Of a stretch of 64,000 bases of DNA, positions 938 through 24,612 are shown piece by piece. The stretch lies in contig CALUPD010000039.1 of the NCBI GenBank assembly GCA_944322605.1, positions 1 to 64,000 on the forward strand. The letters are read 5' to 3'. This stretch comes from an uncultured Bacteroidales bacterium. Its GTDB lineage: Bacteria > Bacteroidota > Bacteroidia > Bacteroidales > UBA932. The number at the start of each line of letters is the position of its first letter. The stretch's first letter is position 1. Made by a program: the position numbers and the translations under genes. Below the pieces are notes generated by a model. The model did no database searches. It was not told the origin of the DNA and saw only the letters and a list, made by a program, of their open reading frames with translations.

Positions 938-958
938 GAGTTGTTATTGATAATAAGT

Positions 959-2002: not shown

Positions 2003-2004
2003 CC

Positions 2005-3027: not shown

Positions 3028-3033
3028 AATTGT

Positions 3034-4493: not shown

Positions 4494-4501
4494 TACATTT
4501 G
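4494..4501 (+). promoter_or_regulatory. Candidate -7 element (TACATTTG)
   Basis: An exact match to the Bacteroidetes -7 consensus TAnnTTTG, 31 bases before the ATG of the ATPase gene. No convincing TTTG -33 element lies at the right distance, only T-rich sequence, so support is partial. A separate promoter would fit the change from capsule to defence-like genes. Confidence 0.4.
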
Positions 4502-4532
4502 TCCTGAGTGACGAGTTAAATGTATAACGATT

Positions 4533-5831: not shown

Positions 5832-5834
5832 CCT

Positions 5835-6476: not shown

Positions 6477-6489
6477 CTTTTTATCTTTG
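6459..6489 (+). promoter_or_regulatory. Bacteroidetes-type promoter for the second ATPase/Toprim pair
   Basis: TTG at 6459-6461, a 20-base spacer and TATCTTTG at 6482-6489, an exact TAnnTTTG match. Transcription would start near 6496, just before the ATG at 6507. The element overlaps the end of rloB, so the second pair can be expressed on its own. Confidence 0.65.
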
Positions 6490-6506
6490 CATCAAAATAC
6501 GTGGAT

Positions 6507-7574: not shown

Positions 7575-8176
7575 CCAGGATATTCGTAGAAGGGCGCGAG
7601 GCGGATTTTATTGATAAATATCTCATGTTTCTTATTGGAGCAAACGCTGGAAAGTGGGAGGTCGTATCTACAGGCGGGTATTCCAATCTCTCTATGATTG
7701 ATCAGAAATTTAAAGAGAACAGCGACAACGGTGGCAATAATCTGGTGATTTTCGATGCTGATTTACCGGAAACAGATGGCGGATTCAAGGCTCGCAAAAA
7801 GCATTTAGAAGAAAAAATGAAAGAATTGTCGGTATCAGGGCAAGTGTTTCTTTTTCCAAACAATAAAGACGACGGCGACTTTGAATCGATGCTGGAAAAT
7901 ATTGTTAATGAAGAACACCGCTGCCTTTTAGAGTGTTTTGAAAGGTATGAGGGCTGCATCGGCAGGCATTGCGATGATCAAGGCAATCCCAAGTATGTTA
8001 CCCCTAACAGGAAAGCCAAGATATATGCTTACGTAGAGTCTTTTAAGAAATCGAATTCTGAAAAAGAGAAATTCAAGAACAAGAAAGATTTCTTTTTTGA
8101 TAATCCTGATTATTGGAATTTGGATTCTGTGTATCTGACGCCATTGAAAGAATTTCTGCTGGAAAATGTGAAATAG
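7571..8176 (+). CDS. DUF3226/Toprim-like protein, partner of the OLD-like ATPase
   Basis: A 201-residue protein beginning IFVEGREADFI, the conserved Glu motif of Toprim/DUF3226 proteins, followed by LVIFDADLP (acidic DxD) near residue 58 and FLFPNNKDDGDFESML. These match the catalytic acidic positions of Toprim nucleases. Its start codon overlaps the ATPase stop, a sign of coupled translation and a fixed stoichiometry. The split ATPase + Toprim layout corresponds to an OLD-like system in two chains. The C-terminal third (KKSNSEKEKFKNKK) is Lys-rich and may contact nucleic acid, which is inference. Confidence 0.75.
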   Translation: MTRIFVEGREADFIDKYLMFLIGANAGKWEVVSTGGYSNLSMIDQKFKENSDNGGNNLVIFDADLPETDGGFKARKKHLEEKMKELSVSGQVFLFPNNKDDGDFESMLENIVNEEHRCLLECFERYEGCIGRHCDDQGNPKYVTPNRKAKIYAYVESFKKSNSEKEKFKNKKDFFFDNPDYWNLDSVYLTPLKEFLLENVK

Positions 8177-8248
8177 CAGGAGAAGGAATGCCGTAGGGTT
8201 TTTGCCGTATATAGAAAAAAAGTACAAATTTGTTGATGTTTTGTAGTT

Positions 8249-9247
8249 ATGATTACAGTCATCTGTCCTATATATAACGAAGAAAAGTACATCGCAAGGT
8301 GCATCGAGTCCATTATGGAGCAGGATTATCCGAAAGAGGATATGGAAGTGCTGTTCGTGGACGGGATGAGCACCGACAGGACGAGGGAGATAATCGGGGA
8401 ATATCTGCCTCGCTGTCCTTACCTGCGAGTGCTTGATAATCCGCAGAGGATAGTTCCGTATGCGATGAATAAGGGGATTGAGGCGGCCAAGGGCGAAGTG
8501 ATAATAAGGATAGACGCGCATACTTCTTATGAGAGAAATTATTTTTCCGCTTTGGTGCGCCGCCTGTACGAGCTTGAAGCCGACGATGTCGGTGCGGTTT
8601 GCAAGACCGATGTCCTTAACAAGACTCCGAAAACATTGGCGATCAGGGAAGTCCTTAGCAACAAGTTCGGTGTTGGCAATTCTGTATTCAGGACAGGGGT
8701 GGACAAGGTGATGGAGGTGGATACTGTGCCGTTCGGCTGCTGGAGGCGCGAGGTGTTCGACAAGTACGGCCTTTATGATACGCGACTTGTCAGGAATCAG
8801 GACATAGAACTAAGCAAGCGCATTTTAAGGGGAGGCGGAAAGATATTCATTGTACCGGATACGTTCTGCACTTATTATGCTCGTGAGACATATCGCGCCT
8901 TGTCAAGGAACAATTATCAGAACGGCAAATGGAATATCCTGACTGTTTATTATACGAAGCAATTCAGTTCTTTGTCGTTAAGGCATTTTGTTCCTATGGT
9001 GTTTGTACTTTCTCTTGTCCTGCCGCCACTCGCTTCGATAATATGGCTCCCGCTGGTATGGATAGCGGTCGCCTCGATTTTGGCATATTTGCTGGCTTTG
9101 ACTGCGGTGAGTGTCAGGTTAGCTATGGATAAAAAATTGAATGTATTTTATTTGCTGTGTAGTTTTTTTGTCTTGCATTTTTCTTACGGCTGCGGCTCGT
9201 TGGCAGGATGTTTTGCCGTTCTTAAAATGAAATTGCAAGGGAAATAA
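8249..9247 (+). CDS. Glycosyltransferase family 2 with C-terminal membrane segments
   Basis: A 332-residue GT-A enzyme. The N-terminus VICPIYNEEKYIARCIESI is the classic GT2 start. RIDAHTSY contains the DxH metal-binding motif, and RNQDIELSKRI supplies the catalytic base and Q/RxxRW-like region seen in ExoA-like enzymes. Residues about 245-320 form two to three hydrophobic helices, so the enzyme is membrane-anchored with the catalytic domain in the cytoplasm. It resumes the capsule operon after the defence-like block and lies 20 bases before the initiating sugar transferase. Confidence 0.88.
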   Translation: MITVICPIYNEEKYIARCIESIMEQDYPKEDMEVLFVDGMSTDRTREIIGEYLPRCPYLRVLDNPQRIVPYAMNKGIEAAKGEVIIRIDAHTSYERNYFSALVRRLYELEADDVGAVCKTDVLNKTPKTLAIREVLSNKFGVGNSVFRTGVDKVMEVDTVPFGCWRREVFDKYGLYDTRLVRNQDIELSKRILRGGGKIFIVPDTFCTYYARETYRALSRNNYQNGKWNILTVYYTKQFSSLSLRHFVPMVFVLSLVLPPLASIIWLPLVWIAVASILAYLLALTAVSVRLAMDKKLNVFYLLCSFFVLHFSYGCGSLAGCFAVLKMKLQGK

Positions 9248-9267
9248 GAATAACAAATTCGGAATCT

Positions 9268-9876
9268 ATGTTATTAAAGAATATATTTGATCGCACGGCA
9301 TCGTTTTTCGGGCTTTTATTCTTGTGGCCGGTTTTGGCAGTGGTGGCTGTTATGATTAAGGTCAAGATGCCGGGAGGACCTGTCCTGTTCAAACAGAAAA
9401 GAGTAGGCAAGGCTGGTAAGTTGTTTACCATGTATAAATTCAGGAGCATGACAGTTGGACATGGCGGATCTTCTGTTTCTGTTGCCGGAGAAAGCAGGAT
9501 AACTCCGCTTGGGGCAAAATTGCGCAAGTACAAATTGGACGAGTTGCCGGAGTTATGGAATGTGCTTATAGGGAATATGAGTTTCGTAGGCCCGAGGCCT
9601 GATGTCCCGGGATATGCCGACAAGTTGCAAGGCGAAGACAGGCGGGTTCTTGAACTCAAACCGGGCATTACAGGCCCGGCGAGCTTGAAATACCGTAGCG
9701 AGGAAGAATTGCTTGCCACTGTCGATGACCCTAAGCGTTACAATGACGAAGTTATTTTCCCCGATAAGGTTCGCATTAATCTTAATTATCTGAAACATTG
9801 GAATTTTTGGTTAGATATAAAAATAATCATATATACTATTCTTGGCAAGGATTTGGAGGAGAATTATTTAAAATAA
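9268..9876 (+). CDS. Initiating sugar-phosphate transferase (polyprenol phosphate glycosyl-1-phosphate transferase)
   Basis: A 202-residue small monotopic phosphoglycosyl transferase of the PglC/WcaJ-C family, which loads the first sugar phosphate onto undecaprenyl phosphate. Features are an N-terminal re-entrant helix (FGLLFLWPVLAVVAVMI), FKQKRVGKAGKLFTMYKFRSM, LDELPELWNVL (catalytic Asp-Glu dyad) and MSFVGPRP near residue 110. The short length without the extra N-terminal domain is PglC-like. Paired with the downstream PglE-like aminotransferase, the first sugar may be a diacetylated bacillosamine-type or related amino sugar; that is inference. Confidence 0.9.
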   Translation: MLLKNIFDRTASFFGLLFLWPVLAVVAVMIKVKMPGGPVLFKQKRVGKAGKLFTMYKFRSMTVGHGGSSVSVAGESRITPLGAKLRKYKLDELPELWNVLIGNMSFVGPRPDVPGYADKLQGEDRRVLELKPGITGPASLKYRSEEELLATVDDPKRYNDEVIFPDKVRINLNYLKHWNFWLDIKIIIYTILGKDLEENYLK

Positions 9877-9931
9877 ACTGCAAGCCGAGAGCAGTGTCGG
9901 AACTTGTTCAGGCAATGCCGAGGCGCAGCGT
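9872..9931 (+). repeat. Dispersed intergenic repeat, copy A
   Basis: The stretch begins at the stop codon of the sugar transferase. Its first 22 bases are identical to those around the hydrogenase stop at 40681-40702, and both copies end their shared part with GCCGAGGCGCAGCG. The middle differs. The copy is followed by about 50 bases of AT-rich sequence before the next gene, with a weak TAGCTTTG at 9971-9978 too close to the ATG to be a normal promoter. Confidence 0.6.
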
Positions 9932-9981
9932 GATTGTAAACGAAGTTTAAAATAAATCGAAAATAATATTAGCTTTGTAAA

Positions 9982-11124
9982 ATGAATAAGAGAATTTATC
10001 TATGCCTTGCTCATATGAGCGGCAATGAACAGAAGTATATCCAGGAGGCTTTCGATACTAATTGGGTCGTTCCTCTTGGACCTAACGTGAATGCGTTCGA
10101 AGAAGATTTGGAGAACTTTTTCGGAGAAAACAATAAAGTCGTGGCCTTGTCGGCAGGGACTGCCGCTCTGCACCTCGGCTTGGTAATGCTTGGCGTGAAG
10201 CCGGGCGACGAGGTGATTTGCCAAAGCTTCACTTTTTGCGCTTCGGCCAACCCTGTGACATATGTCGGGGCAAAGCCTGTTTTCGTAGACAGCGAGGAAG
10301 ATACATGGAACATGGATCCTGCGCTTTTGGAAGAAGCGATAAAGGATCGTATCTCCAAGACCGGCAGAAAACCAAAAGCCATTATACCAGTACACCTTTA
10401 TGGAATGCCTGCCAGGATGGACGAAATAATGGCTATTGCCGAAAAGTATGAGATTCCTGTTTTGGAAGATGCCGCAGAGGCTTTGGGTTCTGAATACAAA
10501 GGCCGCAAATGCGGTACTTTCGGTCGTTTCGGCGCAATGAGCTTCAATGGAAACAAAATGATAACTACATCAGGCGGCGGGGCTTTGGTTGTCCCTGATG
10601 CGGATGCGAAAAAGAAGACGATGTTTTATGCGACCCAGGCTCGCGAGCCGTTCCCGTATTACCAGCATGAGGAAATCGGTTATAATTACCGCATGAGCAA
10701 CATCTGCGCTGGAATCGGTCGCGGACAGATGACCGTGCTGGACGAACATATCGAGCATCACAGGCATGTGCATGGATTGTATGAAAAGGCGTTTGCAGGA
10801 ATTGACGGCATAGAGCTAAAATGCAATCCGAATAGCGATTTCAACGCTAATTTTTGGCTTTGCACGATTCTAATTGATAAGGAAAAGACCGGTTTCGATT
10901 ACGAGCAATTGCGCGTGGCTCTCGATGCGAAAGGTATTGAAAGCCGTCCGTTATGGAAGCCTATGCATATGCAGCCTGTCTATAAGGATGCCCCTTGTTA
11001 TATAAACGGTACTTCCGAGAGACTGTTCGGCAAAGGGCTATGCCTGCCTGCTGGTCCGTATGTGTCTGATTCGGATGTGGAATACATAGTTTCTGAAATC
11101 AAGAAGATGTGTGTTTCTAAGTAA
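9982..11124 (+). CDS. DegT/DnrJ/EryC1 aminotransferase, PglE-like (UDP-4-amino sugar synthesis)
   Basis: A 380-residue PLP enzyme that transfers an amino group to a nucleotide-linked 4-keto sugar. The opening (LAHMSGNEQKYIQEAFDTNWV) and GPNVNAFE match the PglE/LegC branch that makes UDP-4-amino-4,6-dideoxy-GlcNAc. The PLP Lys lies in SFNGNKMITTSGGG (about residue 193), and EDAAEALGS holds the Asp that contacts the pyridine nitrogen. No dehydratase or acetyltransferase partner is in this window, so the ketosugar supply must be encoded elsewhere. Confidence 0.88.
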   Translation: MNKRIYLCLAHMSGNEQKYIQEAFDTNWVVPLGPNVNAFEEDLENFFGENNKVVALSAGTAALHLGLVMLGVKPGDEVICQSFTFCASANPVTYVGAKPVFVDSEEDTWNMDPALLEEAIKDRISKTGRKPKAIIPVHLYGMPARMDEIMAIAEKYEIPVLEDAAEALGSEYKGRKCGTFGRFGAMSFNGNKMITTSGGGALVVPDADAKKKTMFYATQAREPFPYYQHEEIGYNYRMSNICAGIGRGQMTVLDEHIEHHRHVHGLYEKAFAGIDGIELKCNPNSDFNANFWLCTILIDKEKTGFDYEQLRVALDAKGIESRPLWKPMHMQPVYKDAPCYINGTSERLFGKGLCLPAGPYVSDSDVEYIVSEIKKMCVSK

Positions 11125-11172
11125 CGCAGACATAAAAATTGAATTATTGATAATAACAAATAAACCAAACAA

Positions 11173-12021
11173 ATGCAAACTAAGAACCTGATACTATTTC
11201 TTTCCTTGTTGCCGTTTCTGATGACTTCTTGCGCGACGACGAAGTACATATCCTATTTCCAGGATGTGCAGTCGGCTGACGGCGGACAGATTGCCGCTGC
11301 CGCTCCTTCCGAAATCAAGATAAGGCCCAAGGATAAGATTTCCATTGTCATAAGCAGCAAGGACCCGAAGCTTGCGGACTTGTTCAACCTGCCGATATAT
11401 TCGCATCGCGTAGGCTATACTTCCGAATATGTCAACGGCAATAACAATACGAATAATCAGATTTCAGCATATACCGTAGACAGCGACGGGACGATAGATT
11501 TTCCTGTGCTTGGCCGCATACGCATTGCCGGATTGAGCAGGGAAGAAGTTGCTGATTACGTGAAGTCCGAATTGGTGACCAAGAACCTGATAAACGACCC
11601 TGTCGTGACGGTCGAGTTCATGAACCTCTGCGTTTCGGTCCTCGGAGAAGTCAACAAGCCGGGACGGTTCAGGATAGACAGGGATTACATAACTATCCTT
11701 GATGCGATAAGCATGGCGGGCGACCTTACGATTTACGGCGAGCGCGAAGACATCAAGGTGCTCCGTACCGTGAACGGGCAGCAGAAGATGTACACGGTGA
11801 ACCTCTGTTCCGCCGAGCAGGTCTATGCTTCGCCAGTATTTTATTTGCAGCAGGACGATGTGATCTATGTCGAACCTAACAAGATGAGAGCGCGCCAGTC
11901 CACTGTCAACGGCAATAATGTACGTTCGGCTTCGTTCTGGATTTCCATAGCTTCATTCTTGGCTTCGGTGGCCTCGATTGTTACAACCGGCATATATTAT
12001 AATGGTTTGATAAATAAATAA
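11173..12021 (+). CDS. Polysaccharide export outer-membrane lipoprotein (Wza/BexD-like)
   Basis: A 282-residue outer-membrane exporter subunit. It has a lipoprotein signal with Cys at residue 20 (LLPFLMTSC). A poly-export domain follows (IKIRPKDKISIVISSKDP), then an SLBB-type domain (VSVLGEVNKPGRFRI), and a hydrophobic C-terminal helix (FWISIASFLASVASIVTTGIYY) typical of Bacteroidetes Wza-like proteins. It forms the secretion channel together with the downstream Wzc-like protein. Confidence 0.92.
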   Translation: MQTKNLILFLSLLPFLMTSCATTKYISYFQDVQSADGGQIAAAAPSEIKIRPKDKISIVISSKDPKLADLFNLPIYSHRVGYTSEYVNGNNNTNNQISAYTVDSDGTIDFPVLGRIRIAGLSREEVADYVKSELVTKNLINDPVVTVEFMNLCVSVLGEVNKPGRFRIDRDYITILDAISMAGDLTIYGEREDIKVLRTVNGQQKMYTVNLCSAEQVYASPVFYLQQDDVIYVEPNKMRARQSTVNGNNVRSASFWISIASFLASVASIVTTGIYYNGLINK

Positions 12022-12119
12022 TATTCGACATTTATAATGGCGATAAGAAAACCGCTGTGGTTATGTTTGGCCGGTGATAATTCTGCCGAACGGAATATCA
12101 AATTTAATCCTAAATAATA

Positions 12120-14522
12120 ATGACACAGGAAATAAACAATAATATGAAAAATAACGGCGAGGAAATGTTTTCGTTGAGGAATATCTTCTCGATGTGCCTT
12201 GCCAACTGGTACTGGATTGCCGGGTGCGTAGTTATCGCATTGGCGGTAGCGGTGCTGTATGTCAAATCGGCCCAGCCTGTTTACACGAGGTCGAGCTCCT
12301 TGATAATAAAGCAGGACGCGAGGGGCAGGAGCATTTCGTCGGAGACGGACAAATTCGCCGAAATGGGCTTGTTCAGGAACAATACCAATGTCAACAACGA
12401 GATTTACGTGCTGAAATCGCCGATGCTTATGTCGGAAGTTGTCAAAAGCCTGAATCTCACGACTAATTATACGACAAAGTCAGGATTGAGAAAGAAAGTC
12501 CTTTACGGTACAGGACGCCCGTTCAACGTTCATTTCGAGTCGCTTTCCGACAACGAGTCGGCAGCCCTGATGGTCCGGATGATAAATGACAGCCTTTTCG
12601 TGCTTTACGATTTCAAGAAAGGACTGTCGGAATACGACAAGGAGGTCAGAGGCCATTTCGGCGACACCATCTCGACTCCTGTCGGAAATGTAGTAGTGAC
12701 GAAAACGGTATTTTACGACGACATAGAACTTCCGAATCCTGTCGAGGTCGTGAAGGCTACGAATTATGCGGCGACCATGGCGTATTCGGGCAAATTGTCC
12801 GTAACGCTTGCAGATGAAGAAGCCACAGTCGTGAATCTCGAATGCCGGGATTATTCGGTCAACAGGGCGGACGACATATTGAACACTCTCGTGAACGTGT
12901 ATAACGAGAACTGGATAAAGAACAAGAACGAGATTTCGGTCATGACTTCGAGGTTCATAAACGAAAGGCTCGCAGTGATAGAGAGCGAACTGGGAGCCGT
13001 GGACGAGGATATTTCTTCGTTCCGAAGCCGGAACCTGCTGCCTGACTTGCAGACGGCCTCGAATACGTACTTCACACAGGCCAACGAGACGAACGCGAAG
13101 ATAATCGAGCTGAACAACCAGCTCTATATGACGAAGTACGTGAGGGATTACATATTGGACGGCAAGAACAGGTTCCAGCTCTTGCCTGTGAATTCCGGAA
13201 TCGAAAGTTCCAACATCGAAGGGCAGATCGACAGCTACAATACCATGATGCTCGAACGCAATGCTTTGGTAAGCAACAGCAGCGTGAACAACCCGTTGGT
13301 GGTAGACCTTGACAATTCACTGGAGGCCATGCGCAATGCAATCATCAATTCAATAGACAACCTTGAGCTTACGTTGAACACGCAGATCGAAAACCTCCAA
13401 CAGACCGAGAAGCAGACGACTTCGAAAATGGCTGCGAATCCCAACCAGGCAAAATACCTGCTTTCGGTAGAGAGGCAGCAGAAAGTGAAAGAAGCCCTCT
13501 ATCTTTTCCTTTTGCAGAAAAGGGAGGAAAACGAGCTTACCCAAACTTTCACGGCGTATAATTCGCAGGTCGTTTCCGAGCCTAACGGACCGCTTTCTCC
13601 TTCTTCTCCGAGAACGATGATAATTTACCTGCTGGCGGTAGTTTTGGGTTTTGCCGTTCCTGTGGCATGCATTTTCTTCGCAGAATCAATGAATACGAAG
13701 ATTCGTGGCAGAAAGGATTTGGAGTGGCTTACGATTCCGTTTGCCGGAGAGATTCCTTCGAGCAGCCCTGCGAAGAAAGTCAGGGTTCCTTTCCTTAAAA
13801 AGAACAAGAATGTCGATACGCAGCTTTTGGTTAAGGAAGGCAACAGGAACATGATAAACGAGGCATTCCGCGTGGTGAGGACGAATTTCGAATTCATGAC
13901 GGGTTCTGACAAGAAAGTCGCGATGATTACTTCGGTGAATATCGGCAGCGGGAAGACTTTCACATCTGCCAACCTTGCAATGAGCCTTGCCATCAAAAAG
14001 AAGAAGACCATCGTCGTAGACCTTGATATGAGAAAGGCTTCGCTGAGCAAGTTCGTCGGGTCTCCGGAGCGCGGCGTTTCCGATTATCTTGGCGACAGGA
14101 TAGAGTCGTATGAGGATGTTATCGTAAAAGGCGGCCTGCATCCGTTCCTCGATGTGATTCCTGTAGGCGCGGTTCCTCCTAATCCGGCAGAGCTTCTTTT
14201 CAGCGCAAGGCTGAAGAAGATGATCGGAGAACTGAGGGAACGTTATGACTATGTGATCATCGACTGTCCTCCGGTGGAAGTGGTTGCCGATGCTTCTATA
14301 ATAGGAAGCCTTGCCGACATGACATTGTTTGTCGTGAGAGCCGGTCTTTTGGACAGGGCATTCTTGCCTGAGATAGAAAATTATTACCGCAGCGGCAAAT
14401 ACAAGAACATGTCTGTTGTCCTTAACGGTACGGAAGTGGTTACCGGCCAGTACGGTTATGGCCGCTACGGATACGGGTACGGTTATGGCTACGGATACGG
14501 CTACGGTTATCAGGACAAATAG
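12120..14522 (+). CDS. Wzc-like polysaccharide co-polymerase and tyrosine autokinase
   Basis: An 800-residue inner-membrane protein controlling chain length and export. The N-terminal Wzz domain has a first membrane helix at about residues 31-50 and a periplasmic coiled-coil and GNVR region. A second helix lies at about 500-525. The C-terminal BY-kinase has Walker A NIGSGKT (about residue 605), Walker A' VVDLDMR and Walker B YVIIDCPP. The tail is a Tyr-Gly repeat (14451-14510) with about ten tyrosines, the expected autophosphorylation cluster. The gene follows the Wza-like gene by 98 bases and precedes its CpsB-type phosphatase. Confidence 0.93.
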   Translation: MTQEINNNMKNNGEEMFSLRNIFSMCLANWYWIAGCVVIALAVAVLYVKSAQPVYTRSSSLIIKQDARGRSISSETDKFAEMGLFRNNTNVNNEIYVLKSPMLMSEVVKSLNLTTNYTTKSGLRKKVLYGTGRPFNVHFESLSDNESAALMVRMINDSLFVLYDFKKGLSEYDKEVRGHFGDTISTPVGNVVVTKTVFYDDIELPNPVEVVKATNYAATMAYSGKLSVTLADEEATVVNLECRDYSVNRADDILNTLVNVYNENWIKNKNEISVMTSRFINERLAVIESELGAVDEDISSFRSRNLLPDLQTASNTYFTQANETNAKIIELNNQLYMTKYVRDYILDGKNRFQLLPVNSGIESSNIEGQIDSYNTMMLERNALVSNSSVNNPLVVDLDNSLEAMRNAIINSIDNLELTLNTQIENLQQTEKQTTSKMAANPNQAKYLLSVERQQKVKEALYLFLLQKREENELTQTFTAYNSQVVSEPNGPLSPSSPRTMIIYLLAVVLGFAVPVACIFFAESMNTKIRGRKDLEWLTIPFAGEIPSSSPAKKVRVPFLKKNKNVDTQLLVKEGNRNMINEAFRVVRTNFEFMTGSDKKVAMITSVNIGSGKTFTSANLAMSLAIKKKKTIVVDLDMRKASLSKFVGSPERGVSDYLGDRIESYEDVIVKGGLHPFLDVIPVGAVPPNPAELLFSARLKKMIGELRERYDYVIIDCPPVEVVADASIIGSLADMTLFVVRAGLLDRAFLPEIENYYRSGKYKNMSVVLNGTEVVTGQYGYGRYGYGYGYGYGYGYGYQDK
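14451..14510 (+). repeat. TAC/TAT-GGN codon repeat encoding the Tyr-Gly tail of the tyrosine kinase
   Basis: Alternating Tyr and Gly codons run for about 20 codons at the end of the kinase gene, with one Arg. The near-perfect 6-base period makes slippage-driven variation in tyrosine number plausible. Confidence 0.8.
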
Positions 14523-14562
14523 CGCGTTTGCCGGCGGCGTTACGGAATAAATTTGCGTGATT

Positions 14563-15510
14563 ATGGGCATATTCGATATTTTTCACAAGTCTGTTTCGAT
14601 AAAGGATTCGGGATTGCTTTCCGGATATGCCGATTTTCATTCGCATATATTGCCGGGCGTGGACGACGGCGTTAAGACATTGGATGATTCTTTGAAGATT
14701 CTCTCCTTTTATTCCGAAAACGGTGTCGGGTCGCTGTGGCTTACTCCTCATATAATGGAAGATGTCCCTAATACTCCTGAAAAGCTCCGGGCCGGGTTCG
14801 ATGCGCTTTGTTCGGCCTTTTATGCAGGAAAAGGTAATCCTGAATCTTCATGTGTGGCGAAGGATGCCGGTGTGGAAGCCGGTGCGGGTTCTGAATCCTG
14901 CCGCATAGGCATGCAGGGCAGTTCCGGCGCAGGCGGCAACGCGGGTAGCGGAGACAGCGGCTTTTCCGGCCGGACGGCCGGTTGCGGCCCGGATAATCAA
15001 GGTCGCCGCATCGATGCAGGCGGCCTATGCAATCGTTTCGGCCATGGCGGCAGCCTGAAGCTGCATCTTGCAGCCGAGTACATGCTGGACGGGGCGTTCG
15101 ATTCGTTGCTGGAAAAAGGGGATTTGCTTTCTTATGATCTCGGGTGGAAGCATCTATTGGTCGAGACTTCCTGCTTCAGCCCTCCGGCGGATTTTTACGG
15201 AAAGATCTCAAGAATCAGGGAACGCGGCTATTTTCCGCTGCTCGCCCATCCGGAAAGGTATCTGTACATGTCCGAGGAAGATTATTCGGGACTGAAGGAA
15301 TCGGGCGTGAAATTCCAGCTGAATTTGCCGTCGATAGCCGGCATGTACGGACGGCAGGTGCGTTCGAGGGCGGAATTCCTTCTGCGTAAGGGCTGGTACG
15401 AATTTTCCGGAAGCGATACTCATGGGATGTCCCAGCTGCGAGGCTCTGTCGAGCGGCCTCTCCCGCACAGGACCATTGAACTTTTGCGCCGCCTGGTACA
15501 AGGATCGTGA
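14563..15510 (+). CDS. CpsB/CapC-type tyrosine-protein phosphatase (PHP domain) with internal insertion
   Basis: Manganese-dependent PHP-fold phosphatase that dephosphorylates the Wzc-like kinase. Motifs: YADFHSHILPGVDDG (metal-binding HxH), LWLTPH, LAHPERY and SGSDTHG. The ATG at 14563 (MGIFDIFHK) is chosen over the GTG at 14557. An unusual Gly/Ser/Ala/Cys-rich stretch of about 75 residues (nucleotides about 14827-15051) splits the protein between the first metal motif region and LHLAAEYMLDG, where homologues are expected to have a short loop. This is one of several such stretches in the window. Position after the kinase gene fits the usual kinase-phosphatase pair. Confidence 0.88.
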   Translation: MGIFDIFHKSVSIKDSGLLSGYADFHSHILPGVDDGVKTLDDSLKILSFYSENGVGSLWLTPHIMEDVPNTPEKLRAGFDALCSAFYAGKGNPESSCVAKDAGVEAGAGSESCRIGMQGSSGAGGNAGSGDSGFSGRTAGCGPDNQGRRIDAGGLCNRFGHGGSLKLHLAAEYMLDGAFDSLLEKGDLLSYDLGWKHLLVETSCFSPPADFYGKISRIRERGYFPLLAHPERYLYMSEEDYSGLKESGVKFQLNLPSIAGMYGRQVRSRAEFLLRKGWYEFSGSDTHGMSQLRGSVERPLPHRTIELLRRLVQGS

Positions 15511-17175: not shown

Positions 17176-17316
17176 ATGAAAAAGGAAATTTACATTGCGC
17201 CTACGTGCGAAATAGTAGAATTCCAGTCAGAAGGAATCTTGATGTCCTCTTATCAGTACAACGGAGGTCCTGCTGGAATCACGCCTTTCGAAGACGGCGA
17301 CGACTATGCGTGGTAG
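17176..17316 (+). CDS. 46-residue putative RiPP precursor peptide
   Basis: A short gene beginning MKKEIYIAPT and ending GDDYAW, with an A-rich upstream region of Bacteroidetes style and its own strong terminator. The N-terminal half (Y6-x-x-P9, then E12-I13) resembles the leader of lasso-type precursors, where the YxxP motif is bound by a PqqD-like recognition protein. The C-terminal half is Gly/Pro/acid-rich (GGPAG, EDGDD). One Cys lies in the leader-like half. A PqqD-like protein, a kinase, a peptidase and an exporter follow 2-7 kb downstream. Similar short Bacteroidetes peptides are common and mostly unexplained, so both the precursor role and the link to the operon are inference. Confidence 0.6.
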   Translation: MKKEIYIAPTCEIVEFQSEGILMSSYQYNGGPAGITPFEDGDDYAW

Positions 17317-17347
17317 AGATTAATGTGAAATAGTTTGGTATAAGCAG

Positions 17348-17385
17348 AGACCGGGATGACACGTTGGAAAATCCCGGTCTTTTCT
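17348..17385 (+). terminator. Intrinsic terminator after the small peptide gene
   Basis: Perfect 10-base stem (AGACCGGGAT / ATCCCGGTCT), 13-base loop, then a short T-rich tail, 32 bases after the peptide stop codon. It supports the peptide gene as a distinct transcribed unit. Confidence 0.75.
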
Positions 17386-17707
17386 AAAGCGAAGCGCACT
17401 GAGGCGTGCCAAAAAAGTCGGGCGCGAACCCAACAAAGAGGCTAAGTGCTGCCCGGTAGGGGAAATCAGGCGCGAAACTTTGAGATGCAGCTCAAAGGCA
17501 GGAATTCCGAAACATAAATCGGGCATTCCGGTGGATGCAGGGTCTGCGAATGCATGGTGGCGCGGCAATCGCCATGCGCTTTGTCGTTTATAAAGATATT
17601 CTTGCATTCGCTTGATAATAAACGTCATTATTCCATACGGCATGGAAAGGCATTCCATCCGTACAATTAAACTGTAAAATTCATTAAAAAGAAAAATAAA
17701 CAACACT
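17386..17707. other. Intergenic region with no gene seen
   Basis: 322 bases between the peptide terminator and the fimbrillin-like gene. The first half is GC-rich and contains short runs reminiscent of the dispersed repeats (GAAGCGCACTGAGGCGTG), too degraded to call. The last 60 bases are A-rich. I see no convincing promoter or open frame. Confidence 0.5.
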
Positions 17708-19183
17708 ATGAATAATAAATTCTTACTTGCGGGCGCGGCTCTCGTTATGTTTGCCGCATGTTCCGAAAAAAGTGAAATTCCGGTTACCGGTGATAAGCAA
17801 ACAGTGGTTTTTTCGGCTACGATGTCTTCTCCTTCGACAAAGACCCATCTCGGCGATGATGGATATTCTGTCAATTGGAACCAGGGCGATAAAATCACCG
17901 TATTTACCGATATGGGCGAAAGCGCCACTTTCGATATGACAGCCGGCGGCGATACCCCGAATGCCAATTTCAGCGGAACTATCGGGAAAAGCAATTCGTA
18001 TATGGCCCTCTATCCTGATAATAGCGCAGCTACAAGGATTTCGAACGTTGTGAATACTTCGCTGCCTCGCGAACAGAATCTGTCAGCCAATTCATTCAAT
18101 AACCACTTGAATGTTTCCGTGGCATATACCGAAAACGACCAGTTGTTTTTCAACAATGCAATGGGACTGATTAAATTCAGGACTCAGAATGCCAATGGAA
18201 AAAATCTTACAAGAGTCGCTCTCAGAAGCCAGAGAGGAGTGCTTGCCGCTGACAATATTTCGATAACCATGGACGGCAATTCCATAACAAGCGTTGCAGC
18301 GACTGCCAATACTCATGACAATATCGAACTCGATGCTTTAAGAGGCGAGTACGTATCAGATAATACTACCTATTATTTCGTGGTTATGCCAGGAGTCCTG
18401 AACGGCATAGAGCTGACTTTCTCTAATGCGAGCGGATCTTCTTCGTATATCAAGAAAGGCGAAAGCTCTTTGACGGTCGAATCAGGCAAAATCGCTGATT
18501 TGGGTACTATAGATATCAATGCTATCGAGTCCAACGAAAGCGGTTATGAAATCAGCGAAGACGGAACGACCTACAGGGTTTCCAATGCTGACGGCTTGAT
18601 CGCATGGGCTAACGCGGCAAGGTCCAATACGAGCCTGAACTGCGTTTTGCTTGATAATATCAATATGCAGGATGCCAAATGGACATCTGTCGGTTCGAGC
18701 GAAAATCCGTATAACGGTACTTTCGACGGCGGCGGTTTCACGATTAGCAATTTCACATCGGAAGGCTCTTTCATAGGCTGGTACGAAGGTTCTGCTTCGA
18801 ATTATGAGATCAAGGACCTCACTATTGAAAATGTCACTGTCAACGCTCAGGGAAATACTTTCTGCATCGGTACTTTCGTAGGAGTAATCAAAGGACAAGG
18901 CGGCAATTTGACTAACCTCAAAGCTGTCAATGTGACTTTGAACGGCAATACGAATTCCGTAGGCGGCATCGTCGGTGAAACATCCGGCTTGGAAAATAAT
19001 GTGGTCATTTCCAATTGCAGTTTTGACGGAACCATCACAGGCGGATTGATCGTGGACGGCGAGGCTTACAAGGTCGGCGGTATTATCGGTATTTCTGATA
19101 ATAATTACGTTAAATTAAACGGGAATACGTTCTCGGTTGACGGCGTAGAACTTGAAGCCGGCGTAATGCCTGCTTTGAATTAA
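17708..19183 (+). CDS. Fimbrillin-like lipoprotein with C-terminal GLUG-type repeats
   Basis: A 491-residue surface lipoprotein with Cys at residue 18 (ALVMFAAC). Residues about 25-270 follow the fimbrillin/FimB-Mfa pattern: VVFSATMSSPSTKTHL, the W-x-x-GDKITVF motif, and a hydrophobic AMGLIKFR core strand. The C-terminal 200 residues contain GLUG-like repeats (YNGTFDGGGFTISNF, GTFVGVIKG, SVGGIVGETSG, VGGIIGIS), which form beta-helix stalks. It may be a pilus-associated or adhesive tip protein. It lies between the small peptide gene and the kinase operon, so it might be unrelated to the RiPP-like genes or be a target. No own promoter was recognised. Confidence 0.8.
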   Translation: MNNKFLLAGAALVMFAACSEKSEIPVTGDKQTVVFSATMSSPSTKTHLGDDGYSVNWNQGDKITVFTDMGESATFDMTAGGDTPNANFSGTIGKSNSYMALYPDNSAATRISNVVNTSLPREQNLSANSFNNHLNVSVAYTENDQLFFNNAMGLIKFRTQNANGKNLTRVALRSQRGVLAADNISITMDGNSITSVAATANTHDNIELDALRGEYVSDNTTYYFVVMPGVLNGIELTFSNASGSSSYIKKGESSLTVESGKIADLGTIDINAIESNESGYEISEDGTTYRVSNADGLIAWANAARSNTSLNCVLLDNINMQDAKWTSVGSSENPYNGTFDGGGFTISNFTSEGSFIGWYEGSASNYEIKDLTIENVTVNAQGNTFCIGTFVGVIKGQGGNLTNLKAVNVTLNGNTNSVGGIVGETSGLENNVVISNCSFDGTITGGLIVDGEAYKVGGIIGISDNNYVKLNGNTFSVDGVELEAGVMPALN

Positions 19184-19374
19184 TCGAAGTTTCCGGTCCG
19201 GCCATGGGGCGCACATTGTTCTCCTTTGCCGGACTATGCCAAACAGGCGTTTTGTATAAAATGCCTGGGTAAATAAAGTTTTGAACATGCGGGGATGTTT
19301 CCTTTGGCTTTTCGGCTTTCGGATTCACCCCCGTTTATTTAACTTTTGCTTGTGTCGCTTTCTGAGGTGTTCTT

Positions 19375-20637
19375 ATGGCTTATACTGGAATTTCATGCGT
19401 TGTTGCAGGACATGGTTTCGAAATCAGGTTTCCGGACTGGTTTCCATATAAAGATGTTCTCGGGGAAAAATATTCAGTGTTTTCGGCGACTGACAAAGGC
19501 CGTGTCTTTGCATTGACCTTGCTCGAACCGTGCAAGGCTTATGTTGGCATGGAAATATGCGGATTGCTGGAATTCATAGGAAAATACAACGACGCTTCTC
19601 CATATACGTGGATTTACAGGCTTAAAAAGGATGCTTGTGAAAACAGCATCAATGATATGCTGCGGGAGGCGTCCGGAGACTTTTCGCAAGAGGTTCTTTT
19701 GCCGGACGGATGCGATTATGTGTTCGGCTTTTCCGAATCAGAAGATTCTCCTGAATGCCTGATTTTTACAAGCAGGGATTACAGTCAGGCCGTAATGTAC
19801 TGGACTGAAAGCGCCAAGCAGGCGTGCGGCGGCATTCATTCATTTTCCGGTGCGCCCGTCGGCGATTTCGGCGACGGGTCTTCCCGTAATGCGGGTTTGC
19901 CGGACGGGCAGTGCGGAGCAAGCCATGCTTGCGGGCCGAATGATGCCTTGCTGCGGGATTATTTGTCCCGGAACCGGCGCATATGTTCGAGAATGAGGTT
20001 TCATATTGAAAATTGCCTTATGCTCCTGTATGCATTCAATACGGCTGACAAGGATACGGTGCTTATTCATGCTTCTGCCGTGGAATGGAACGCTCCTGCC
20101 AAGGCGGGCTGCCCGGTCGGGCGAACGGAGCATTCAGGCGGGGATGCGATTCTCCAGCAGGTTTCCGCTCCTGAGGCAGTCAGATCGGAATCGGCCTCTT
20201 GCGGGGCGGTCTTTCTCGGTAAAAGCGGTACCGGAAAAAGCACCCATGCGCGGCTGTGGTTGAAAAATTATCCCGATTGCAGGCTTTTGAATGACGATAA
20301 TCCGGCAATCAGGATTGTCGGAGAAAAGGCCTTCGTTTTCGGCACTCCGTGGAGCGGAAAGACTCCATGTTATAAGGATGCGAAATCGGAGCTGAAAGGC
20401 ATCGTGCGCTTACGGCAGGCCAAGAGCAATAATATTTCCCGAATGGATCCGATAAGGTCCTACGCCTCGTTGATGGGTTCGGTTTCATGCATGCATTGGG
20501 ACAAGAGATTGTCTGACGGAGTGCATGATACGGTAAGCAGGATCATAGGGATATGCCCCTCTTTCATGCTTGAGTGCCTCCCTGACGACGGGGCGGCGAG
20601 GCTTTGCCGTTCGGTTCTCCGCGATAATGCAAGATAA
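19375..20637 (+). CDS. HprK-like serine kinase (RiPP-cluster type) with two insertions
   Basis: A 420-residue protein whose C-terminal third is an HPr kinase-like domain: Walker A GKSGTGKSTHARLW (about 282-295), LLNDDNPAIR (acidic Walker B-like) and FGTPWSGKTPCYKD. Stand-alone kinases of this family occur in lasso peptide clusters, where they phosphorylate the precursor. The N-terminal domain has no assigned function. Two low-complexity Gly/Ala/Ser/Cys-rich segments (about 150-190 and 240-275) interrupt it; the second lies exactly between IHASAVEW and the P-loop strand AVFLGKSG, which are nearly contiguous in related proteins. The next gene starts 4 bases downstream. Confidence 0.75.
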   Translation: MAYTGISCVVAGHGFEIRFPDWFPYKDVLGEKYSVFSATDKGRVFALTLLEPCKAYVGMEICGLLEFIGKYNDASPYTWIYRLKKDACENSINDMLREASGDFSQEVLLPDGCDYVFGFSESEDSPECLIFTSRDYSQAVMYWTESAKQACGGIHSFSGAPVGDFGDGSSRNAGLPDGQCGASHACGPNDALLRDYLSRNRRICSRMRFHIENCLMLLYAFNTADKDTVLIHASAVEWNAPAKAGCPVGRTEHSGGDAILQQVSAPEAVRSESASCGAVFLGKSGTGKSTHARLWLKNYPDCRLLNDDNPAIRIVGEKAFVFGTPWSGKTPCYKDAKSELKGIVRLRQAKSNNISRMDPIRSYASLMGSVSCMHWDKRLSDGVHDTVSRIIGICPSFMLECLPDDGAARLCRSVLRDNAR

Positions 20638-20641
20638 TCGT

Positions 20642-21208
20642 ATGAGCAAGAGTGTTTGTGAATTGCCTGTCGAGGTATTTGCTTCTTCCGTGCAAAGCAT
20701 CATAAAGGAAGGACGTTCAGCCGTAATTACGGCCAAAGGGGCCAGCATGCTTCCTTTCATACACGGCGGAACGGACCGCCTTGTGATTGAAAAGCCTGTT
20801 TCTCCGTCCCAAGGAGATATTTTGTTTTGCAGGGTTTCCGGCGGACGTTATGTCATACATAGGGCCATTGCAGTGAAAGATGGCCGTATCGTTCTTATGG
20901 GGGACGGGAATATTCGCGGCAAGGAGTATTGCGGAGAGGGCGATGTCATAGGCAAAGTGTCGGGCATATTGCGGCCTTGCAGGCGTTCCTCTGCCGTGAA
21001 GTGCCGCCATGCCGGTACTTTTCAGGCTAATGGCGGCGTCTCATGTTTTGACGGAATGTCGAAGGGACGCGGTCCCGATGATTGCGGCCCTGCAAAACTG
21101 ATACGCTGCGATTCGCGGTCGTTCCGCATCAAGTCTTCATTATGGAGGCGCATGCTTCCTGTCAGAAGACTCATGTTGTTTGTTTATAGAAAATTAAATA
21201 ATTATTAA
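20642..21208 (+). CDS. S24/S26 signal peptidase-like protein (Ser/His type)
   Basis: A 188-residue LexA/signal-peptidase-fold protein. The Ser nucleophile lies in KGASMLPFI (Ser35, SMxP motif). The second catalytic motif reads YVIHRAI with His73, as in ER-type Sec11/SipW signal peptidases and not the usual bacterial Lys. MGDGN at about 86-90 is the GDxN box. There is no N-terminal membrane helix; a weak hydrophobic stretch is at the C-terminus (MLFVYRK). Residues about 119-156 form another Gly/Cys-rich insertion-like segment. I chose the ATG at 20642 because an earlier one at 20627 overlaps the kinase. In this context it may cleave the leader of a modified peptide, which is inference. Confidence 0.75.
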   Translation: MSKSVCELPVEVFASSVQSIIKEGRSAVITAKGASMLPFIHGGTDRLVIEKPVSPSQGDILFCRVSGGRYVIHRAIAVKDGRIVLMGDGNIRGKEYCGEGDVIGKVSGILRPCRRSSAVKCRHAGTFQANGGVSCFDGMSKGRGPDDCGPAKLIRCDSRSFRIKSSLWRRMLPVRRLMLFVYRKLNNY

Positions 21209-21245
21209 TTGCGATTCTTAAACTATGTCGCGTGAATTTGGCACA

Positions 21246-21277
21246 TTTGCTTTTTTGATGAAAAAGTGCTAAATTTC
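21246..21277 (+). promoter_or_regulatory. Possible internal promoter before the PqqD-like gene
   Basis: TTTG (21246-21249), 20 bases, then TAAATTTC (21270-21277), one mismatch from the -7 consensus. It lies in the only gap (87 bases) within the operon. Confidence 0.35.
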
Positions 21278-21295
21278 CCTTAAAAAATTTCTGTT

Positions 21296-21565
21296 ATGTA
21301 CAAAATTAAAGACGGTTTTGTTCTTAGAAAAGTAGGCGATGATTATGTTGTCGTCGCTGAAGGTGCGGGCCAGGTCAATTTCAATAGGATGTTGCGGCTT
21401 AATAATTCTGCGGCGTTTCTGTGGAATAAGATCGAAGGCAAGGAATTCGATGTGTCGATGCTGGCTTCGTTGCTTGTGGAGAGGTATGCAATCGAGTTTT
21501 CGGAAGCTAAGAAAGACGCGTCAATGCTCATATCCGTTTGGCAGGAACTTGGTGTTATTGAATGA
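21296..21565 (+). CDS. PqqD family protein (RiPP recognition element)
   Basis: An 89-residue stand-alone PqqD/RRE protein: MYKIKDGFVLRKVGDDYVVV, LNNSAAFLWNKIEG and a C-terminal winged-helix pattern (FDVSMLASLLVERYAI). Such proteins bind the leader of ribosomal peptides and present them to modifying enzymes; in lasso clusters the equivalent is B1, which recognises a YxxP leader. Its stop overlaps the start of the next gene by 4 bases (ATGA). This gene is the strongest single reason to view the operon as peptide-processing, although PqqD proteins also occur in surface-polysaccharide settings. Confidence 0.85.
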   Translation: MYKIKDGFVLRKVGDDYVVVAEGAGQVNFNRMLRLNNSAAFLWNKIEGKEFDVSMLASLLVERYAIEFSEAKKDASMLISVWQELGVIE

Positions 21566-22851
21566 AAGTTTTAGACGACGTTTTGATTGGAATGCTCCGT
21601 ATCGGGATATGGAGCAGGGAAAAATTAAATGATTCGGAATTGTCCGACAAGTCTTCGTCGGACAAATTCAATAATAATTTAGGACGTCTCATTTCCGAAA
21701 GCTGCCTTATGAGCGAAAGGCAATGGAACGCCCTTTTTTCAATGGCATCGAGAAATGCCGTCATAGGAATTGTCGGAAGCGTAGTTTCTTCCATAGGCCG
21801 TTCATTGGAATCTCCTTCGTCTACAGTCAGTTTGCTGCCTGAAACAATTTCCGCGAAATTGAAGGCCTGCATTGACAGGATAAAGGAAAGCCATCTGCTG
21901 TTGAATGTTACTATCGCGCAGGTCAATGATTATTTGTGCGACAGGGGCATCCGCCCGGTTTTGCTCAAAGGGCAGGGCGTGGCTTTGGAGTATCCTTCTC
22001 CGACGATGAGGCAATGCGGGGATATCGATTTGTATGTCCGTCCCGATGATTTTAAAAAGGCTTGTTCGGCGTTGTCTGAAATATGCGAAACCGACGGCGG
22101 CAGCTTGGACGAGTTGTCCCATCATGCTGCGTTTAAGAAAAACGGGATTCCTGTAGAGCTGCATTTCAAATGCGCGGTTTCCGTATTTTCGGAATACGAC
22201 AAGAAGATTGCTGAAATTACCGAACGCTATCTTCATTGTCCTGACGGGAATTTCAGGAAGCATTCTTTCGGCGGAAAGCACGATGTGTTTTTGCCGCCCG
22301 CTGATTTCGATGCCTTTTATCTTTTATATCATCTGATCAGGCATTTCATTTATGAAGGAGTGGGCCTCAGGCATTTTTGCGATTATGCCGTGTTCATGCA
22401 CTCTCATTCCGGCGAAATCGACAAGGCTGCTTTGGTCAGGCATTTCAATGATACCGGCGTTTTGAAGTTCTACGAGGTTTTGAGATGCCTGATGGTGCGT
22501 TATTTCGGGGTCAGCCCTGATACCCTTCCGGCAGCGGGCCCGGAAGACGGCGGCAATGCCCCGGAAAGCGCAGGCGGCAATTTCAGCAGGCGGGTATGGA
22601 GGAAATCGGAAAAAATGCTCGCCTTGGTGATGGAATGCGGAAATTTCGGCTTTTTCATGTTCAAGCCGAGAGGTTTCAATTCCGTCAAATCGGACAGGTT
22701 GAGATATTATCTTCGCAAGGCTGACTCCCTGTCCAGAAAACTCAAATGGCGCATAAGGATATTTTCTCTTTTTCCGGCGTATGTTTCCGGAGAATTTCCG
22801 CGTTTTGTATATTCGCATGTGAAATCCGCTTTGCGCGGCGGGAGGTCTTGA
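21562..22851 (+). CDS. Nucleotidyltransferase family protein (NTP_transf_5 type)
   Basis: A 429-residue protein with the family motif PVLLKGQGVALEYPSPTMRQCGDIDLYV (about 131-158), in which GDIDLYV holds the paired Asp of the nucleotidyltransferase fold. A VELHFK segment near 195 supplies the third acidic position. Members of this family sit beside HprK-like kinases and PqqD proteins in some lasso and lasso-like clusters, where they may add a nucleotide or similar group. A Gly/Ala/Asn-rich stretch (GPEDGGNAPESAGGN, about 322-336) looks like the insertions in neighbouring genes. Translationally coupled to the PqqD-like gene and 15 bases before the ABC transporter. Confidence 0.78.
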   Translation: MKVLDDVLIGMLRIGIWSREKLNDSELSDKSSSDKFNNNLGRLISESCLMSERQWNALFSMASRNAVIGIVGSVVSSIGRSLESPSSTVSLLPETISAKLKACIDRIKESHLLLNVTIAQVNDYLCDRGIRPVLLKGQGVALEYPSPTMRQCGDIDLYVRPDDFKKACSALSEICETDGGSLDELSHHAAFKKNGIPVELHFKCAVSVFSEYDKKIAEITERYLHCPDGNFRKHSFGGKHDVFLPPADFDAFYLLYHLIRHFIYEGVGLRHFCDYAVFMHSHSGEIDKAALVRHFNDTGVLKFYEVLRCLMVRYFGVSPDTLPAAGPEDGGNAPESAGGNFSRRVWRKSEKMLALVMECGNFGFFMFKPRGFNSVKSDRLRYYLRKADSLSRKLKWRIRIFSLFPAYVSGEFPRFVYSHVKSALRGGRS

Positions 22852-22866
22852 ATTCAGGTTGATCCT

Positions 22867-24612
22867 ATGGGGGGAATTTTACGATACTTGCAGTGGTTTT
22901 GGCATAGGGCGTCTGCTGTCCGTGCCGGATTGGCTTTGTGCATTTTTTCAGGTCTGATGCAGGTAGCATGTTCCATGTCCTTTATTTATCTGTGCAAGAC
23001 CATAATCGATTCGGCTACAGGCTATACGGAATATTATTCCGTTCCGGGTCCGGACAGCGGTCCGCCGGATTATGCCGGCGTGCCCGTAGCAACGGATGGC
23101 GCATGCGCGGATGCCGTACCAGGATGGCATGGTTTTGCCTTTTATGCCTTTTTGATAGTTTCATGCACATTATTGCAAATCCTTTTTTCTTCCCTTAGGC
23201 AATATTTCAGGGACAGGAACGACATAATGTTTAAAAGTACCTTGCGCTGCGACCTGTTTTCCCGTTTTATGAACGGCTACTATTATTCAGGCCGCAAGGG
23301 CAGGCATACGGGGGATATATTGAACCGCATGGAAGAGGATGCAAGAGTCGTGTCCGAGACCGTAAGCACTGCTTTTCCCGGAGTCGCGGTGGCTTTGGCG
23401 CAATTCGCCGCAGCATTTGTTTTTATGCTTTTAATGGACTCGTCGCTTGCCGTATTGCTTGTCGTTTTGATACCGGCATGCCTTGTATTCAGCAAATTGT
23501 TTTTGAGGCGGCTCAAGGCCCTGACTTCTGAAATACGGGAAATCGACGGGAAATCGCAGTCTTACATGCAGGAAAGCCTCCAGCATATAGTTCTTTTGCA
23601 GACTTTGGATGGGGGAAGGAATGCTTCCGATAAGCTGAATTCCATGATGAAGGAGATGTATTCCAAGGTAGTAAGGCGCAGCCGGATTTCCATATTGTCC
23701 AGAGTGGTCGCGGTCTCGTCCGTGGCTATTGGCTATGTGGCCGCTTTCCTGTGGTGCGCTCACGGACTTGCCGACGGCTCGGTGTCGTTCGGGATGATGG
23801 CTGCATTCTTGCAGCTTGTCAACAGGGTCCAGGCGCCGGCTTCGGAAATCATGCGTTACCTTCCGTCATTCGTTCATGCTTCTGCTTCAGCCGACCGCAT
23901 TATCGAGATTGAAAGCGAGACTTCGGCGGAAGAATCGGACAGGCATGTCGTAGTGCCTTATCCTGCGGGCATGCTTGTAAGCAACGTGACATTTTCATAT
24001 CCTGACGGAAAGAGGCTCATCCTGAAAGATTTTTCACATGATTTCAAACCGGGTTCCCGTACTGCCATAGTAGGGGAGACAGGGGCCGGGAAGAGCACGT
24101 TGATTCGCCTTATGCTGGCTTTGCTCCGTCCGGCGAGCGGGAGCATAACCCTATATTCAGGCGTGTCCGGTTTCAGTGCCGCAGCTTCCGCTTCTACAAG
24201 GTGCAATTTCGTGTATGTGCCGCAAGGAAACAATATGATGAGCGGGACAATCAGGGAAAACCTGCTTGTCGCCGATCCTTCCGCTACCGAGGACGATATG
24301 TACAGGGTGTTGGGAATCGCTGCCGCCGAATTCGTAAGGGACTTGCCGGACGGGCTGGATACCCAATGTTCGGAATATGGCGGCGGCTTGAGCGAAGGCC
24401 AGGTGCAGCGCATATCGATAGCGAGGTCTTTGCTCCGCAAGGGCAGCATTTTGCTGTTCGACGAGTTCAGTTCCGCGTTGGATGATGAAACGGAAGACAG
24501 GCTCATGAGGAATCTTACTGAAAGTCTTCCCGACAGGACCATGATTTTCATAACGCACAGGGACAGGGTCGCGGATTATTGCGATCATGTCGTTAGGCTG
24601 ATTCGCCTGTAG
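22867..24612 (+). CDS. ABC transporter, fused permease and ATPase (exporter type)
   Basis: A 581-residue half-transporter. About six membrane helices occupy residues 20-320, followed by the ATPase: Walker A GETGAGKST, Q-loop VPQGNNM, signature LSEGQ, Walker B ILLFDEFSS and H-loop ITHRD. It has no N-terminal C39 peptidase domain, so leader cleavage must be done by another protein, possibly the S26-type peptidase. Residues about 57-87, in the first extracytoplasmic loop, are a Gly/Pro/Ala/Asp-rich insertion. As the last gene of the operon, before a strong terminator, it fits a peptide exporter with immunity function. Confidence 0.9.
   Translation: MGGILRYLQWFWHRASAVRAGLALCIFSGLMQVACSMSFIYLCKTIIDSATGYTEYYSVPGPDSGPPDYAGVPVATDGACADAVPGWHGFAFYAFLIVSCTLLQILFSSLRQYFRDRNDIMFKSTLRCDLFSRFMNGYYYSGRKGRHTGDILNRMEEDARVVSETVSTAFPGVAVALAQFAAAFVFMLLMDSSLAVLLVVLIPACLVFSKLFLRRLKALTSEIREIDGKSQSYMQESLQHIVLLQTLDGGRNASDKLNSMMKEMYSKVVRRSRISILSRVVAVSSVAIGYVAAFLWCAHGLADGSVSFGMMAAFLQLVNRVQAPASEIMRYLPSFVHASASADRIIEIESETSAEESDRHVVVPYPAGMLVSNVTFSYPDGKRLILKDFSHDFKPGSRTAIVGETGAGKSTLIRLMLALLRPASGSITLYSGVSGFSAAASASTRCNFVYVPQGNNMMSGTIRENLLVADPSATEDDMYRVLGIAAAEFVRDLPDGLDTQCSEYGGGLSEGQVQRISIARSLLRKGSILLFDEFSSALDDETEDRLMRNLTESLPDRTMIFITHRDRVADYCDHVVRLIRL

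Follow-up and report, generated by a model that had tools for sequence, protein, structure and literature searches.

A probable linear-phosphopeptide maturation pathway in Bacteroidales, with dispersed precursors that mostly adjoin surface-protein genes

Introduction

Linear polyphosphorylated peptides (LPPs) are ribosomally synthesized and post-translationally modified peptides (RiPPs) described from the lppAKBSDN cluster of Paenibacillus alginolyticus, in which five proteins and a precursor with a YxxP leader were shown experimentally to work together, giving phosphorylated linear peptides (Popov et al., Nat Commun, May 2026; PMC13381572). The kinase LppK phosphorylates Ser3 of the core, and not Thr or Tyr; the peptidase LppS (S29/H68/D93) cleaves before A-Q-S, assisted by the RiPP recognition element (RRE); and the Tyr and Pro of the leader, YxxPxVLxHQxIxFETxxS, contact D70 and N33 of the RRE protein LppB, respectively (PMC13381572). 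The class was called restricted to Bacillota. Its precursors were sought no farther than 5 kb from the cluster, and the study makes no mention of a lipoprotein or an adhesin (PMC13381572). Here we analyze a stretch of 64,000 nucleotides (the window) from an uncultured Bacteroidales bacterium (contig CALUPD010000039.1), in which a 46-residue YxxP peptide and a surface lipoprotein gene precede an operon for a kinase, a peptidase, a PqqD-type RRE, a nucleotidyltransferase (NTase) and an exporter.

Two other kinds of RiPP resemble this locus in part. Phosphorylated lasso peptides (paeninodin, Bsf, pseudomycoidin) have in common with the window a B1-type RRE, a YxxP/WxxP leader, an HprK-like kinase, an NTase and an ATP-binding cassette (ABC) exporter, whereas the window has neither a macrolactam cyclase nor a transglutaminase-like B2 protease, its leader peptidase being of the S26 type. 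Prochlorosins likewise arise from one enzyme set (ProcM) and many dispersed, unlinked precursors with a conserved leader and a variable core, yet their enzymes and chemistry are unrelated to those of the Bacteroidota pathway, and no surface-protein partner is known for prochlorosin precursors.

Results

The + strand of the window carries, in this order, the YxxP peptide, the surface lipoprotein, an HprK-fold kinase, an S26-type peptidase, a PqqD protein, an NTP_transf_5 protein and an ABC exporter; every element that an initial annotation, made from the letters alone, had named was found within the positions that it gave. This gene set equals that of the published LPPs (PMC13381572), which combine a signal peptidase I (SpI)-type Ser/His/Asp peptidase, a discrete RRE, an HprK-like kinase, an NTP transferase and an MsbA-like exporter without a cyclase, all of them matched in the window. 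We therefore favour, with good confidence, the reading that the operon is a Bacteroidota maturation pathway for an LPP-type RiPP. Judged from its genes, a gut-type bacterium thus appears to encode what is needed to phosphorylate a small ribosomal peptide, trim it and export it, a pathway previously described in Gram-positives only. The initial annotation had proposed a phosphorylated, leader-cleaved and exported RiPP made without a cyclase; the proposal gains support from the co-occurrence of kinase and peptide reported below and from the finding that the identical gene set of Bacillota makes phosphorylated linear peptides (PMC13381572). Its remark that the class has no known core enzyme has to be corrected, since the HprK-like kinase is known and defines the class. 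The genome (1.87 Mb in 40 contigs, about 4% missing) holds one PqqD gene, one strong kinase, one YxxP peptide and one member of the lipoprotein family, all in the window. Here and throughout, the evidence consists of sequence and structure prediction, and many of the genomes compared are metagenome bins.

The kinase (19375-20637, + strand, 420 residues) has a Walker A motif GKSGTGKS, an invariant H232, and the motifs NDD and PWSGK. Its AlphaFold model (mean predicted local distance difference test score, pLDDT, 75) matches HprK/P and PEPCK structures with a Foldseek probability of 1.0 and E about 1e-4; searches of curated Pfam and NCBIfam gave no family match for it, only sub-threshold or non-informative ones. 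Kinase and S26 peptidase form a single open reading frame (ORF) in three loci (L019, at 8458-9969, L057 and L099), an arrangement that would be supporting evidence for coupled phosphorylation and cleavage. In another locus (L025, 10590-12767) the reading frame of an IspG-like protein upstream continues into that of the kinase, and the resulting 725-residue ORF is either a fusion or a read-through.

Next to the kinase lies the gene of an S26 (archaeal/Sec11-type) signal-peptidase-like protein, the putative leader peptidase (20627-21208, + strand). Its Ser40, His78 and Asp93 are invariant in 15 homologues, and its profile matches SPase I and Sec11C weakly; TIGR02228 matches the protein at 25.8 bits. 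Ser40 and His78 are the residues first numbered Ser35 and His73, the count there having begun at the alternative ATG at 20642. The window protein also bears an insertion of about 45 residues (20990-21140), absent from homologues, between the catalytic domain and a conserved C-terminal amphipathic segment.

The discrete, B1-like RRE (21296-21565, + strand; PF05402, E=1e-12) has as its best solved-structure match TfuB1, a lasso leader-binding B1 protein (E=1.5e-6), in agreement with the earlier suggestion of a B1-like PqqD protein for the YxxP leader. N36 and D74 are invariant and align with N45 and D82 of TfuB1, at the 37-residue spacing that N33 and D70 of LppB also have, and it is from this spacing that the equivalence to LppB would follow. 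Two further genes on the + strand complete the operon, a putative nucleotidyl- or glycosyl-transferring tailoring enzyme (NTP_transf_5, PF14907, E=3e-39; 21562-22851) and an ABC exporter of the MsbA kind that lacks a C39 peptidase domain (22867-24612; ABC_membrane and ABC_tran matches in Pfam).

The precursor gene (17176-17316, + strand) translates to 46 residues, MKKEIYIAPTCEIVEFQSEGILMSSYQYNGGPAGITPFEDGDDYAW, in which Y6, P9, E12, I13, E15, E19 and S25 match the family motif Y-x2-P-x2-E-[VI]-x-E followed by Ser at Y+19. Searches of Pfam, NCBIfam and PHROGs gave no family name for it, and the promoter pattern TTTG-n-TAnnTTTG has no match before the gene. Over 86 distinct peptides the leader consensus reads Y-x2-P-x2-E-[VI]-[IV]-E-h ... 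E-x-h-h-[AC]-x-S, with the Ser at exactly Y+19 in 66 and between Y+17 and Y+21 in 85, and with Ala or Cys at Y+17 in 62. The part after the conserved Ser has a median of 19 residues, is rich in Gly, Asp and Glu and almost free of Cys; with a median net charge of -4 the cores are acidic, and 71 of 85 precursors have an aromatic residue among their last eight positions. Since 13 of the 85 cores contain neither Ser nor Thr after the conserved Ser, that Ser itself is the likeliest universal target of the kinase, and a kinase acting on core Ser or Thr in general is disfavoured.

Compared with LPPs, in which the conserved Ser follows the leader Tyr by 18 residues, the Bacteroidota spacing is 19. The core of LppA has AQS, and the Bacteroidota peptides frequently have AQS or CQS. 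They differ from LPPs in the leader motif EVIE...E.G and in core ends that are acidic or aromatic. The leader end F-x-[T/A] of LPPs is replaced here by E-x-h-h-[AC]-x-S, with I, F or L in place of Thr, and we therefore class the Bacteroidota family as an LPP-like variant and not as a full LPP member.

Two groups of precursors share features at their C-termini. Prevotella-like precursors (L207-L216 and L217-L219, genomes G141 and G299) have the motif [YS]R-x-S-x-W-x-[DE]-[DFY]-E, which hints at a core site that all of them share for recognition or modification. A second subgroup (L060, L061, L082, L105) ends in D-[DE]-K-x-L-A or similar (KHLA, KPLA, NRLA, DHLA), resembling a C-terminal tag, and several of its members adjoin large secreted proteins and an NTase gene.

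Scanning one genome per species with the kinase alignment turned up at least 539 related loci; the 80 best were retained, and these come without exception from Bacteroidales or from similarly labelled gut metagenome bins. Kinase, S26 peptidase and PqqD stand together in most of 96 kinase loci, with the exporter present in 60 and the NTase in 33. A profile of the YxxP peptide found 28 members in kinase loci and none in reversed sequences. We find that across 294 Bacteroidales genomes the peptide occurs in 12 of the 20 with the kinase as against 3 of the 274 others (Fisher p=7.6e-14; p=1.4e-10 when the genomes used for building the profile are left out), so that a lack of co-occurrence of peptide and operon, named in the initial annotation as the outcome that would speak against it, did not occur. 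In accordance, a sample of 60 relatives has 14 peptide-positive genomes, of which 12 belong to the 15 that carry a strong kinase (p=2.6e-8). A sample of 296 genomes from the phylum yielded the kinase at E <= 1e-20 in the window genome, in G329 (two copies, E < 1e-60) and in G439 (6e-22, distant), and G329, with four peptides, is the only other peptide-positive genome there.

The precursors mostly lie far from the operon; up to 17 occur in one genome, usually together with one kinase operon. Co-occurrence within 10 kb, the check first put forward, was observed: in the relatives sample 8 of 46 peptides lie no more than 10 kb from the kinase against 0.45 expected, and most precursors are farther away. 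Because of this distance a 10-kb window understates the link between peptide and operon. The genomic pattern indicates one operon that serves scattered precursors in trans, be it a single one or many, as against LPPs, whose one to three precursors lie inside the cluster.

Immediately 3' of a dispersed peptide gene there is usually a lipoprotein gene in the same orientation. Under a strict lipobox criterion, adopted in place of a loose signal-peptide classifier whose background was too high, a lipoprotein lies within 150 bp downstream of 51 of 91 peptides, compared with 24 of 561 other genes from these loci (p=1.8e-32), and for 72 of the 91 one of the two flanking genes encodes a secreted-type protein. 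All four peptides of G329 are followed by lipoproteins; in Prevotella-like genomes a large secreted protein stands directly beside the peptide gene. The partners (about 280-2200 residues) share a beta-rich N-terminal region and differ in adhesin-like C-terminal repeats, among them leucine-rich repeat (LRR), GLUG, immunoglobulin-like (Ig-like), InlB and Mfa-like types. Fimbrillin-superfamily and BspA-like surface lipoproteins of Bacteroidales likewise combine lipoboxes and beta-rich N-terminal domains with LRR, GLUG, Ig-like and Mfa-like domains; unlike the partners described here, they have no link to a RiPP-like peptide gene in the literature that we found. Nor is a surface partner reported for LPPs, in contrast to the Bacteroidota precursors, which are usually paired with a surface lipoprotein or a secreted protein.

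In the window the partner is the lipoprotein at 17708-19183 (+ strand), with the lipobox MNNKFLLAGAALVMFAAC; its N-terminal half is all-beta and resembles fimbrillins, and its C-terminal half is repetitive and GLUG-like. It is homologous to lipoproteins adjoining other YxxP peptides and is present as a single copy in the genome. Searches of Pfam, NCBIfam and PHROGs gave sub-threshold or non-informative matches only, and the predicted structure, a poor one (pLDDT 56), resembles cell-adhesion proteins of Bacteroides only weakly. The initial annotation had counted this fimbrillin-like gene, lying between peptide and kinase, as a weak point; because such a lipoprotein recurs beside the dispersed peptides, it is a regular part of the arrangement and no interloper. 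In a sister species (G001) the homologous pair sits on a 37-kb contig and the operon on another, from which we conclude that peptide and lipoprotein form a unit of their own. One array (L181 in genome G005, 654-13273) consists of tandem related lipoproteins interspersed with near-identical precursors, core ...PDYGDGGELTQMYNPKPDKNKLIG, which suggests duplication of the peptide-lipoprotein module.

Discussion

Gene content, motif conservation, co-occurrence and peptide-lipoprotein pairing are established directly, and beside them we infer a course of chemical steps that ends at the cell surface. The PqqD-type RRE would capture the YxxP leader, as homology of its profile to TfuB1 and its invariant residues suggest. 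By analogy with the Ser-only specificity of LppK, the HprK-like kinase would phosphorylate the near-invariant Ser at Y+19. The S26 peptidase, a cytosolic enzyme with a Ser/His/Asp triad, would cut off the leader, most likely just before [A/C]-x-Ser; a cut after the conserved Ser is the alternative allowed by the (-3,-1) rule of signal peptidases, and the former is favoured because LppA has the same A-x-S yet is cleaved before it. The NTase, where present, may, more speculatively, attach a further group to the phosphate. The MsbA-like ABC protein would then export an acidic core of about 20 residues, and at the cell surface this mature peptide is probably bound or displayed by its lipoprotein or secreted partner.

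Several observations weigh against this reading. NTase and exporter are missing from many kinase loci, 8 of the 20 kinase-positive Bacteroidales genomes have no peptide at the threshold used, and no close kinase is present in two or three genomes that do have the peptide, of which one is 89% complete and has a kinase-positive congener. The LppB structure 9X8Z was absent among the PDB matches. The cleavage site is uncertain, because the residue before the proposed cut is I, F or L here and Thr in LppA. In the window itself the lipoprotein gene starts 391 bp after the peptide gene, past a strong stem-loop (17346-17384, + strand; -24.7 kcal/mol, z -4.4, no shuffle as stable) followed by TTTT, a likely terminator or attenuator just 3' of the peptide gene. 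Given this gap and the hairpin with its T run, the two genes are likely to be separate transcripts and are probably not simply co-transcribed.

We tentatively propose that one phosphopeptide operon supplies many two-gene modules, each made up of an acidic RiPP and its own lipoprotein or adhesin, the phosphopeptide being a dedicated ligand, cofactor or assembly element of its partner. If true, this would be a surface-decoration system and not an antibiotic, and the first functional clue to LPP-type RiPPs. The pairing makes the role of such peptides testable: does the phosphopeptide bind, assemble or regulate its surface partner? The LPP class is enlarged, the same enzyme set with matching precursors being found across Bacteroidales and once in another order of Bacteroidota, and dispersed precursors mean that searches must be genome-wide, beyond the surroundings of the cluster.

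Four other explanations were weighed against an LPP-type pathway. The best surviving of them, which is nonetheless unlikely, is a toxin-immunity array of the bacteriocin kind, in which each exported peptide would act as a toxin to which the neighbouring lipoprotein confers immunity. Immunity to lantibiotics can be conferred by lipoproteins, and diverse cores, a cognate neighbouring gene and a dedicated exporter would all fit; however, the partners are large and carry adhesin-type repeats (LRR, GLUG, Ig-like, InlB), and the acidic, nearly Cys-free cores are unlike typical bacteriocins. A little less likely again is that kinase, S26 peptidase and PqqD act on the lipoproteins, with the peptide as adaptor or activator instead of product. 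The lipoprotein neighbour is indeed as constant as the peptide, but RRE proteins bind leader peptides, the peptide bears both an S26-like cut motif and the conserved Ser, and the lipoproteins are presumably processed by Lgt and LspA; in the LPP system it is the peptide that is the substrate (PMC13381572).

We consider it improbable to a further degree that the peptide genes serve as small leader ORFs, regulatory or translational, for the adjoining surface-protein genes and are unrelated to the operon. Their position beside such genes and the terminator-like hairpin of the window would suit this explanation, whereas the genome-wide co-occurrence with the kinase, the excess of peptides near the operon and a leader conserved as amino acids with a fixed Tyr-Ser spacing would not; in many loci, moreover, the peptide gene lies 3' of the surface gene, where a role as upstream leader is impossible. 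A lasso cluster that lost its cyclase and B2 protease, or carries them elsewhere, is the least probable of the four and largely refuted: although the YxxP leader, the resemblance of the PqqD protein to lasso B1 proteins and the presence of kinase and NTase, both known lasso accessories (PMC8498205), would fit it, the window genome has as its sole PF00733 (lasso cyclase) match one of 29 bits on another contig and no PF13471 (B2 protease) match, in keeping with the absence of both enzymes noted at the outset, PF13471 exceeds its cut-off in none of 17 relatives checked, an S26 peptidase fills the protease role in most loci, Thr is missing at leader position -2 and no ring acceptor of the lasso kind recurs consistently in the cores. 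Lasso-peptide membership is accordingly rejected in spite of the B1-type RRE and YxxP leader.

A more distant branch of the kinase (E 1e-10 to 1e-30) is present in about 23 of the 294 Bacteroidales genomes, G046 and G060-G063 among them, and for the most part no peptide was recognised alongside it. In L034, the single locus inspected, it stands with PqqD, NTase and ABC genes, and the branch is possibly a sister system with other precursors.

Capsule or exopolysaccharide (EPS) genes of the Wza, Wzc and CpsB/CapC types lie at 11173-15510, just upstream of the YxxP peptide, and both operon copies of G329 (L228 and L229) likewise adjoin Wzc-type genes. A general link to capsule or EPS, prompted by these two genomes, was rejected, a recognised EPS gene being present in 5 of the 96 kinase loci. 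Some LPP loci lie near capsule genes too, like the window and both operons of G329.

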